Below, piece after piece: positions 15,800 to 33,633 of a stretch of 34,150 bases of DNA (positions are counted from its first letter, which is position 1; the number at the start of each line of letters is the position of its first letter). A model generated the notes under the pieces. It ran no database searches, was not told where the DNA came from, and saw nothing but the letters and a program-made list of their open reading frames with translations. Where the stretch lies: contig JAJFUE010000044.1 in the NCBI GenBank assembly GCA_021372575.1, positions 1 through 34,150 of the forward strand, read 5' to 3'. A program made the position numbers and the translations under genes. This stretch comes from a bacterium. Its GTDB lineage: Bacteria > Sumerlaeota > Sumerlaeia > MVZB01.

Positions 15800-16007
15800 A
15801 GCCCCGGCAGGGGCGATACAAGTTAGCCCAGCGCGTCAGCGCTGGGACAGCGGTTCCATCAGTCGTACCGCGCCCCGGCAGGGGCGGCACAACGGAGCGA
15901 TACAAATCTGTGTCGCCCCTGCCGGGGCTCGGACTGTTCATGGACACGCTACCCAGGGTTCCGCTTCGCTCCACCCTGGGCTAACTTGTATCGCCCCTGC
16001 CGGGGCT
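15800..16007. repeat. Nested palindromic repeat mosaic
   Basis: This mosaic fills much of the 574-bp gap between divergent genes (15558-16131). Outer arms 15800-15831 and 15976-16007 are a perfect 32-bp inverted repeat. Inner arms 15872-15891 and 15910-15928 are a near-perfect inverted repeat carrying the same GCCCCGGCAGGGGCG core. Two further hairpins sit inside: CCCAGCGC/GCGCTGGG (15827-15846) and CCCAGGGT/ACCCTGGG (15952-15980). The core palindrome CCCCGGCAGGGG therefore occurs four times, twice in each orientation. No coding sequence is convincing here. Confidence 0.92.
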
Positions 16008-21341: not shown

Positions 21342-22775
21342 ATGAGAAATTTGCTTTTGGCATTTGTTTGCCTGGCCTTCATCGGTTCAACAGTCCATGC
21401 GGCCAACATCGATGTCGGCGCCGGCGCGTCGATCCAGACGGCCATCAACGGCGCCTCGGACGGCGACACCATCACGCTCACCAGCAGCACCGTTTATAAG
21501 GGAAACCTTCGCATCAACAAATCGATCAAGCTGGTGGCCGCAGCCGGCCAGACGCCGAAGGTCGAACAGCTTGACAACACCACCACGGCTCCCGTGATCC
21601 TGGGCGTCACCGCCAGTCCGAGCTCGGTTCAGCTGGGCTCGGCCACGGGCGGCCGGCTCACGTTCCAGTATCTGAAGTGGGGCATCGCCACGGGCGCCAC
21701 GCTGCCGTCGGGCATGATCCGCATCGACTCGACGACCGGCAGCACGGTCCTCATTGAGAACTGCGACATCATCTCGACGGGCCCCGATACCTACGGGTTC
21801 TGCTCGGGCATCGTCCACGGCGCCAATCCCGCCACGGTCACGGTGAAGAACACCAATATCAACCTGAACCGCGCCAATTACACCGCCGGCGGCGACTCCG
21901 GCAGCCGCTGCTATGCCTACGGCATTGAAATCGGCGATACGCACGCGGTCACCTACATGACGCGCCGCATCCCCGGCCCGGTCTATAACCTCGACCACGT
22001 CCGCATCAAGAACTACCTGCGCGCCGGCATCTGGCTGCAATACACCAGCGCCACGCTGAACGCCAGCTACATCGATGTCGGCACGGTCGGCGAAGCATGC
22101 AACGCCGGCACCGTGATGCCGTGGGGCCCGCTGATTTCATTCCACCAGGCCTCCACTTGGACCGGCCGGATCGACCACAGCATTTTCCAGGGCCCGGCCA
22201 ACTATCACGGCTTTGGCGCGATTGGTCCCAACGGCACGAGCATCACGATGACGCGCAGCGTCGTTCTCGGCAAAGCGACGTCGGCCAGCTACGGCGCGAT
22301 CTATGCCGCCGAGCCGAACTCGGCCGTGGGAAACACCTCGTCGAAGTGCCGGCTCACGATGGACCATTGCGACATCGCTTCGCTCGGCGCCGACGGCGGC
22401 GCGATCCTGAAGAACGCCGCGGGCGCCAACAACTCGCTGCTTGTGAACATCACGAACAGCAACCTCTACTCGGCGTCGGCCAACGCCGTGAACCTGACTC
22501 TTGCCGCCGGTGAGTCGTTCACCTCGAATTACAACGACGTGTTCGGCGCCACGGCGAACGTCGGCTACACATTCGGGGTTCATGACCTTTTGCTGAATCC
22601 GAACTATATCGACGTGAACGCCGCCGATATGCGCTATGACAACAACGCGTTGAAGGTCGGCGATTCGACCGGCGGGGCGATCGGCACCAACGGCGGTTAC
22701 GGCGATGTCGTCACGGGCATCGTCCCGGGCTTTGGCGTGGTCAACCGCGCCCACGGCTGGACGGTGTTGGAGTAA
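21342..22775 (+). CDS. Secreted right-handed beta-helix protein, paralogue 3
   Basis: This 477-residue protein has signal peptide MRNLLLAFVCLAFIGSTVHA, then NIDVGAGASIQTAINGAS. The first 350 residues follow paralogue 1 closely, for example DNTTTAPVILGVTASP, FQYLKWG, STVLIENCDI and RRIPGP before the LDHVRIKNY strand. The C-terminal section diverges (DMRYDNNALKVGDSTGG) but the last residues NRAHGWTVLE are conserved. The fold should be a secreted beta-solenoid. An envelope, matrix or glycan-binding role is inference. It has its own promoter, leader and terminator. Confidence 0.85.
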   Translation: MRNLLLAFVCLAFIGSTVHAANIDVGAGASIQTAINGASDGDTITLTSSTVYKGNLRINKSIKLVAAAGQTPKVEQLDNTTTAPVILGVTASPSSVQLGSATGGRLTFQYLKWGIATGATLPSGMIRIDSTTGSTVLIENCDIISTGPDTYGFCSGIVHGANPATVTVKNTNINLNRANYTAGGDSGSRCYAYGIEIGDTHAVTYMTRRIPGPVYNLDHVRIKNYLRAGIWLQYTSATLNASYIDVGTVGEACNAGTVMPWGPLISFHQASTWTGRIDHSIFQGPANYHGFGAIGPNGTSITMTRSVVLGKATSASYGAIYAAEPNSAVGNTSSKCRLTMDHCDIASLGADGGAILKNAAGANNSLLVNITNSNLYSASANAVNLTLAAGESFTSNYNDVFGATANVGYTFGVHDLLLNPNYIDVNAADMRYDNNALKVGDSTGGAIGTNGGYGDVVTGIVPGFGVVNRAHGWTVLE

Positions 22776-32163: not shown

Positions 32164-32277
32164 TGATCGAACCGATCAATCGGTTCAAATATGAATGCGA
32201 TCGGGTCCGGGGGTTGGTTCGGCTCGCAAGCTCGCCGAACCAACCCCCGGCTTTGAGCTCGAACCACTTCGTGGTTC
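32164..32277. repeat. Triple-hairpin element, copy L
   Basis: Three consecutive hairpins fill most of the 286-bp gap between amrS and the histidine kinase. H1 is GAACCGAT/ATCGGTTC (32169-32186). H2 is a perfect 17-bp stem (32207-32223 with 32234-32250). H3 is GAACCAC/GTGGTTC (32261-32277). The same order and orientation recur in copy R at 33521-33633, with compensatory changes. No T-run follows any stem on either strand. Confidence 0.9.
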
Positions 32278-32341
32278 AAAAATAACCATCCAATTCGGAG
32301 GCGCTGCACTTCGGAGACACCGCACTGGAACCCAAGACAAT

Positions 32342-33499
32342 TTACGGCAAATCGATGCGGAACGTTGTTGAGCCTTTTTCGGGGGTGGAATCGAAGGAGA
32401 CTTTGCCGCCGAGGTAGCGTTCGCCGAACAGCTTCATGCTGTAGGTGCCGATGCCGCGGCCTTTCTGGGCCTTGGTGCTGAACGACCGTTTGAACAGTTG
32501 CAACTGAACCTGCTCGGGGATCACGCCGGGGTTGGTGACGAAGAACGAGGGTTTGCCGTCCACGCGTTCGAATCCGAGCTTGACGGTCGCGCCCTGATCG
32601 ACCGCTTCCATCGCGTTCTTCGTCATGTTGGTGAGGATGCGTTCGAGAAGCATGCGGTCGCTGGTGATTTTCTCCTGATCAGCGATATCGGTGACTTCGA
32701 GGGATTTTCCCTTTGCGGATTCGTGCGCGAGGAAGACGGTGTGGATGACATCGAGGAGCTCGCGGACGTCGATTTCGTCCTGGTTGATGCTGAGCGTTCC
32801 GTTTTCGGCCTCGAGGAGGCGGCGCTGGTCCTCGATCTCCTGCTTGAGGCGGCGCGAGAGGGTCAGGATGCGATTGGCGGCCTCCTTGGGGTCGAGGCTG
32901 TCGATCGTCTGCATGAGCGAGCTCCAGCCCATGAGGCCGCCGACGGTGTTCATGATGTCGTGGAAGAAGGTGCGCTCGAGGGCCTGGCGGCGCTTGTCGC
33001 CGCTGATGTCGTGGAAGGTGAGGACGGTGAACTCGTGGTTGCCGGACTTGATGGGTGTGGCGCGGACGCGGAATTCGAGCGAGTCCTCGCCGCTGGCGCC
33101 GGCGACGGTGGCGAGGCACTCGCCGGTGACGGGTTCGCCCTGGGATTGCGACGCGAGGATGGAAATGACGGCGCCGCAGGTGGCGCAGTTCTTGGACGTG
33201 CCGCAGCCGCCGGGGCCCTTGGCCGCATGGATGCAGTTGAGGATCTCGCCGGGGCGTTCGCCGAACAGGCAGCTCGGGTCGTCGATTTTCAAGTCGGTGA
33301 GCAACTGCCGGTTCATCGCGAGGACCTGGCGCTGCGGGTTGAGGATCATCAGGTAGCCGTCGATGGAGTCGAGGATCGCGCGGAAGAGTGGGTTGTCCTG
33401 AACGAACCGGCTCATGGACGCGACGTCTTCCGAACTGGCGCGTTCGGGCGGCGCGAACCAGGTTGAGGGCTCGGGTGAAGGCATTGGATCGTCGGCCAT
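32342..33499 (-). CDS. PAS-domain sensor histidine kinase with Cys-rich insert, orphan
   Basis: This 385-residue soluble kinase has no signal peptide or membrane helix. A PAS domain (about residues 35-165) contains the insert CIHAAKGPGGCG, TSKNCATCGA, with four Cys that could bind metal or a cluster or sense redox. The phosphoacceptor region is RTFFHDIMNTVGGLMGWSS (His about 180), an HxxxN form seen in the cytosolic kinases of this group. The ATP-binding domain shows NMTKNAMEAV (N box), GRGIGTYSMKLFGE (G box) and KGSTTFRIDL. No response regulator is adjacent. The gene is bracketed by triple-hairpin elements at 32164-32277 (downstream) and 33521-33633 (upstream), the latter beginning 22 nt before its ATG. 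Confidence 0.92.
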   Translation of the reverse strand: MADDPMPSPEPSTWFAPPERASSEDVASMSRFVQDNPLFRAILDSIDGYLMILNPQRQVLAMNRQLLTDLKIDDPSCLFGERPGEILNCIHAAKGPGGCGTSKNCATCGAVISILASQSQGEPVTGECLATVAGASGEDSLEFRVRATPIKSGNHEFTVLTFHDISGDKRRQALERTFFHDIMNTVGGLMGWSSLMQTIDSLDPKEAANRILTLSRRLKQEIEDQRRLLEAENGTLSINQDEIDVRELLDVIHTVFLAHESAKGKSLEVTDIADQEKITSDRMLLERILTNMTKNAMEAVDQGATVKLGFERVDGKPSFFVTNPGVIPEQVQLQLFKRSFSTKAQKGRGIGTYSMKLFGERYLGGKVSFDSTPEKGSTTFRIDLP

Positions 33500-33520
33500 G
33501 ATGAAATCCCGTGGGTTGAC

Positions 33521-33633
33521 TGATCGAACCGGTCAACCGGTTCTGATTTTCGTGTCATCCAACCGTGGGTAGGTTCGTCGAACAAGTTCTCCGAACCAAC
33601 CCACGGTTGGAGATCGAACCGCTGCCGCGGTTC
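33521..33633. repeat. Triple-hairpin element, copy R
   Basis: H1 is GAACCGGT/ACCGGTTC (33526-33543). H2 is a 19-bp stem with one mismatch (33559-33577 with 33592-33610), whose loop holds a nested GAAC/GTTC. H3 is GAACCGC/GCGGTTC (33616-33633). It is a second copy of the element at 32164-32277, in the same orientation, and lies in the leader of the histidine kinase gene. Confidence 0.9.

Follow-up and report, generated by a model that had tools for sequence, protein, structure and literature searches.

Among described systems, those closest to the repeats analysed here pair a Y1 HUH transposase with short hairpins. In the REP/BIME/REPIN-RAYT systems (TnpA-REP, class 2 of Quentin), a 5'-footed hairpin of 21-65 nt with the foot GT[AG]G occurs in many intergenic copies and in inverted pairs, and it flanks a Y1 HUH gene whose product has a YxxxNP motif (PMC6006769, PMC8266576, PMC3116915). 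Members of the IS200/IS605 family (IS608 and ISDra2; subclass 1.1) are short single-gene units with subterminal hairpins at both ends, one per end in IS608, lying on the same strand; their transposases carry Y[IV]ENQ and their copies are of high identity. For subclass 1.2, defined by DH[IV]H, WQ and YxxxQxxHH and found mostly in Cyanobacteria and Bacteroidetes, Quentin et al. (2018) reported neither REP nor terminal structures (PMC6006769), while TnpA-Y1 class 3, from Planctomycetes and Acidobacteria, has several atypical structures and the motif YV[VI]xEQ (PMC6006769).

The three-hairpin elements of the present locus and its relatives belong, as a variant, with the REP/RAYT and IS200/IS605 elements. 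Like REPs they form many intergenic copies, footed hairpins and inverted pairs, and in relatives they flank a Y1 HUH gene, but they consist of three ordered hairpins over ~100-115 nt rather than one, the foot in the family of the window is GATC, the transposase motif is YxxxQxxHH, and gene and ends are tightly packed in the manner of an insertion sequence. They resemble IS200/IS605 elements in Y1 HUH homology, in hairpins at both ends and in the short single-gene unit, but each end has three hairpins and the two ends are inverted. The transposases share DHVH, WQ, YxxxQxxHH and a length of about 150 aa with subclass 1.2, although here they come with three-hairpin ends and from Planctomycetota, Verrucomicrobiota, Acidobacteriota and Sumerlaeota. 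Class 3 is similar in its several atypical flanking structures, which are at times high-copy; however, its motif YV[VI]xEQ occurs in none of 79 proteins collected here and its CnGA foot was not seen in the family of the window. The reading we favour, with a probability of roughly 0.77, is that L and R, the two elements of this locus, each represent a solo copy, REP-like and non-autonomous, of an end of a putative Y1 HUH transposon of the subclass 1.2 type.

Both elements lie in a stretch of 34,150 nt (the window), on either side of a histidine-kinase-type gene (HATPase_c; 32342-33499, minus strand) that is not part of either. The first-pass annotation had described three hairpins in the same order in each element, with TGATC before each H1, and this is what we find. 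Element L (32164-32277, plus strand), of the CTCGCAAGCTCG-tip subfamily, comprises H1 (32169-32186, plus strand; GAACCGA TCAA TCGGTTC, foot TGATC), H2 (32207-32250, plus strand), which is a perfect 17-bp stem, and, 10 nt further on, H3 (32261-32277, plus strand; GAACCAC TTC GTGGTTC). Element R (33521-33633, plus strand), of the subfamily with the CGAACAAGTTC tip and CCGTGGG stem, comprises H1 (33526-33543, plus strand; GAACCGG TCAA CCGGTTC, foot TGATC), H2 (33563-33606, plus strand), whose pairing can be extended outward to 33558-33611, and H3 (33616-33633, plus strand; GAACCGC TGCC GCGGTTC, foot AGATC); the four-letter H3 foot is GATC in R and GCTC in L. Folded as single-stranded DNA, L and R have z scores of -7.5 and -7.9, and none of 200 shuffles folds equally well. 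In the minimum-energy fold of L an overlapping TGATCG/CGATCA hairpin takes the place of H1, an alternative that is not conserved, since the GATCA it needs is missing from most copies. Elsewhere in the window, 15800-15846 on the minus strand matches the Acido-Lenti-1 sRNA family (51.2 bits).

L and R belong to a dispersed repeat of ~113 bp. With L as query, BLAST returns 40 copies of full length from this genome, and a covariance model made from 42 BLAST-found copies, a search that the first-pass annotation had suggested, finds about 73 strong copies on a one-strand count, so that the possibility that no other copies exist falls away; the model also gives weak echoes on the opposite strand, because the hairpins are palindromes. 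The family consensus is TGATCGAACCGGTAAACCGGTTC-N18/20-CCGGGGGTAGGTTCG...CGAACCAACCCCCGGCTTTGAGATCGAACCGCTTCGCGGTTC, laid out as H1, about 20 nt, H2, 10-12 nt and H3. H2, which had been said to differ throughout between L and R while still pairing, does pair, but it falls into a few subfamilies with a stem base of CCGGGGG or CCGTGGG and a tip of CTCGCAAGCTCG or CGAACAAGTTC. The hairpin feet are GATC or TATC, and the similarity of H1 and H3 feet holds roughly within this family; as a general rule, identical feet fail across phyla. The solo copies are diverged (median identity 76%) and give no sign of recent activity. Some ten of them (L019, L021, L023, L026-L029, L031, L039) sit inside a ~210-bp unit bounded by the inverted repeat CTAGTGTAGTGTCTC / GAGACACTACACTAG; because it is clear in only about ten copies, we rejected the idea that elements in general end at this outer repeat and take it to mark a nested subfamily. 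Just past L, 32278-32330 bears a degenerate likeness to that unit's outer portion (CAATTCGGAGGCGCTGCACTTCGGAGACACCGCACTGG). The same genome (G000, e.g. L301-L307) has, at dozens of places, a second inverted repeat of high copy number, in which GGAATTCCTGTTCGGAGTTCAAACTTCAGTTTGC and its complement enclose a short loop. One three-hairpin copy (L046) lies within the loop of this second repeat, which occurs elsewhere without it, and this single case in a diverged repeat suggests an insertion of one repeat into another; a search of flank joins among the collected loci found no clean empty site.

The same three-stem order, which the annotation had proposed to look for in relatives, recurs in seven other genomes (G001, G008, G011, G015, G016, G021 and G030) of a class set of 39 examined with the covariance model. 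Their stem sequences are quite different and their feet are of GTC or GACG types, with order and spacing alike. In G008, G021 and G030 the units mostly form inverted pairs that point outward, with 22-92 bp between the two facing H1s. The gene-less pairs of G021 align with one another along their full ~240 bp, at an identity of about 75-83%, and since most of these alignments end within 2-3 nt of the H3 ends and the flanks are unrelated, the pair is a discrete repeated unit. Two contigs of the set are identical to deposited Candidatus Sumerlaeota / Sumerlaeia records, C142 of G008 to JAFGFN010000083.1 over 3450 bases and C493 of G037 to JAFIGB010000055.1 over 2281 bases, and these matches identify the class of the window as Candidatus Sumerlaeia.

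What links these units to a transposase is the gene that some pairs enclose. On one contig of G008 (C112; L128), a Y1 gene, found like the others as a PF01797 (Y1_Tnp) match, lies between inverted units at 22002-22112 (minus strand) and 22631-22741 (plus strand), and such a gene sits exactly between outward units also in G011 (C61; L159), in G030 (C40, and C41; L203) and in G021 (C98; L199). In G030, three gene-less pairs have ends that share 73-84% identity with those of a gene-bearing unit (L203). The enclosed proteins are about 150 aa long with the motifs DHVH, WQ and YxxxQxxHH; their profile matches the TnpA structures of IS608 (ISHp608) and ISDra2 in PDB (E 5e-17 for the ISHp608 transposase), and three of five score above the cut-off of NCBIfam NF033573. 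Judged by its motifs, the relatives' transposase has the signature of subclass 1.2 (DH[IV]H, WQ, YxxxQxxHH, about 148 aa), and among named relatives YxxxQxxHH is present in 77 of 79 proteins, the median length being 150 aa. Among the examined PF01797 matches of the window genome, none has ends of the L/R type (GATCGAACC-type), and in some (L181, L183, L187) the three-hairpin ends differ in sequence from that type; a partner whose ends do match may have been lost, may be unassembled (the assembly has 214 contigs) or may have diverged. One of these loci (L187, 388-583) is a hybrid that fuses a three-hairpin unit of another family to the window family's linker, H2 and H3, the H1 of the latter being replaced. 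In another genome (G002), tandem hairpin repeats of ~84 bp adjoin a Y1 gene (L207, 2383-2817). No link to a defence system emerged, as PADLOC gave no match.

How general such ends are was surveyed at 80 named Y1 loci from about ten phyla, by reading 220 nt on each side outward for H1, H2, CT and H3. At a threshold of 17, 77 of 155 flanks contain an outward three-hairpin unit, compared with 1.8 in dinucleotide shuffles and 7 in the same flanks read inward, a fraction that is descriptive because scoring, the CT demanded after H2 and the threshold were all settled once some flanks and failures had been inspected. A stricter rule without CT, fixed before the named loci, finds units in 49 of 157 flanks; the corresponding figures are 1 of 471 for shuffles, 20 of 157 for inward reading and 1 of 69 for control regions in the far flanks. 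Twenty-eight genes have a unit on both sides, the median distance from the gene to the start of H1 is 20 nt, and spacing is near-constant, with about 23 nt between H1 and H2 and, in most units, 11-13 nt between H2 and H3. Units occur in 35 of 45 flanks in Planctomycetota, 18 of 23 in Verrucomicrobiota, 12 of 19 in Acidobacteriota and 2 of 47 in Bacteroidota; half of the 155 flanks, including most of those from Bacteroidota, show none under the scan rules. These loci do not sample subclass 1.2 at random, since they are the best-scoring relatives of a query made of class genes, several of which already had three-hairpin flanks. Within the class set, genes of the subclass 1.2 type have a unit in 37 of 62 flanks and subclass 2 (YxxxNP) genes in none of 14, the latter a small sample of seven genes because the gene finder missed several loci.

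It is conceivable, though we think it improbable, that the unit is instead a host element, for example one related to the nucleoid or to replication, into or beside which Y1 transposons insert. The genome of the window does contain many solo copies without a transposase, and REP elements are known insertion targets of other mobile elements. However, units occur on either side of transposase genes, always outward and at a median of 20 nt, each gene-bearing unit has stem sequences of its own that are alike at its left and right ends, and the gene-less pairs are sharp-ended.

Equally improbable is that the family is primarily a structured RNA, transcribed mainly in mRNA 3' ends, with a part in stability, processing or termination or a function in trans, its dispersal being secondary. 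Such a role could draw on the paired stem changes, which hold well beyond L and R. Over 42 copies, 94.9% of stem cells are paired, and 57 cells are changed on both sides, compared with 22.9 in shuffles, although these counts are not independent events because copies descend within subfamilies. The A-T to G-C exchanges reported for H1 and H3 are borne out (H1 pair 12-17: GC 27, AU 14; H3 pair 108-115: GC 23, AU 19), and H2 behaves likewise (pair 49-89: GC 33, UA 7). The earlier proposal of selection for structure gains support from these changes, which count for the transposon reading as well, and from other families and phyla, where the three-stem design recurs with stems unrelated in sequence. 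Gene context, taken from a codon-usage gene caller written for this analysis, bears on both readings. In line with the favoured one, 71 of 73 copies show no overlap with coding calls and, of the 64 with neighbours on both sides, only 4 lie in divergent gene pairs. An RNA role could draw on the 48 of these 64 in which the H3-side neighbour has its 3' end toward the element, and on tandem gene pairs, where orientation against transcription prevails by 26 to 12. It could also draw on the cells without Watson-Crick pairing, which favour G-U on the minus strand (21 vs 9). However, this G-U preference is due mostly to a single pair in a single lineage, a Y1 preference for one strand at replication forks would likewise yield an orientation bias, no T-tract follows H3, the 3'-most hairpin of the element, and inverted bracketing of transposase genes across phyla is not predicted by an RNA role. 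Covariance models of known Rfam RNAs give no match above the gathering score at L or R. An intrinsic terminator was rejected as well, the two terminator-like calls around H1 of R being within the number expected from shuffles.

The gene context of the copies is REP-like and unlike that of the leader of one gene. A riboswitch or leader role for the family was rejected because of this context, and the suggestion that R is a regulatory leader is not supported as the family's function, because copies adjoin unrelated genes, mostly at gene 3' ends; it is possible that R acts locally on the 5' region of the kinase gene. Nor do L and R behave as a pair. They are in direct orientation but only 73.9% identical, and they rank 52nd and 43rd in each other's list of 72 other copies; the nearest relative of L is a copy on contig 88 (C88; 91.3% identity) and that of R a copy on contig 132 (C132; 90.4%), and given this low mutual identity and the closer relatives elsewhere, we take them to be two independent insertions. 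A cassette made up of the kinase gene and its flanks, moved by exchange or excision between L and R, had been proposed. Two copies in direct orientation around one gene are in keeping with it, but it is very improbable, since L and R are of different subfamilies, each with nearer relatives elsewhere, about 71 further copies adjoin unrelated genes and no recombinase is seen at the locus.

On the favoured reading, that L and R are solo ends of a Y1 transposon, the full form would be a subclass-1.2-type Y1 gene of ~150 aa bracketed by outward three-hairpin ends. Its transposase would recognise the hairpins while the DNA is single-stranded, probably at replication forks, cut next to them by means of the HUH/Tyr active site, and paste the units elsewhere, steps modelled on known Y1 biochemistry (PMC8266576, PMC6006769). 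Gene-less pairs would have arisen by gene loss, and solo units would be single ends spread likewise in trans.

Whether the three-hairpin end also marks a distinct and widespread class of HUH-Y1 element (subclass 1.2), in which an inverted compound end of near-constant spacing replaces the single hairpin of IS200/IS605 and seeds REP-like repeats, is in our judgement an evenly balanced proposition. The literature open to search contains no description of such ends. One genome of the class (G030) holds autonomous and gene-less units together and would be suited to a direct cleavage or transposition assay. If the favoured reading is right, a high-copy repeat of a little-studied candidate phylum would be accounted for, and subclass 1.2, reported without associated structures, would gain a candidate DNA substrate in several phyla.
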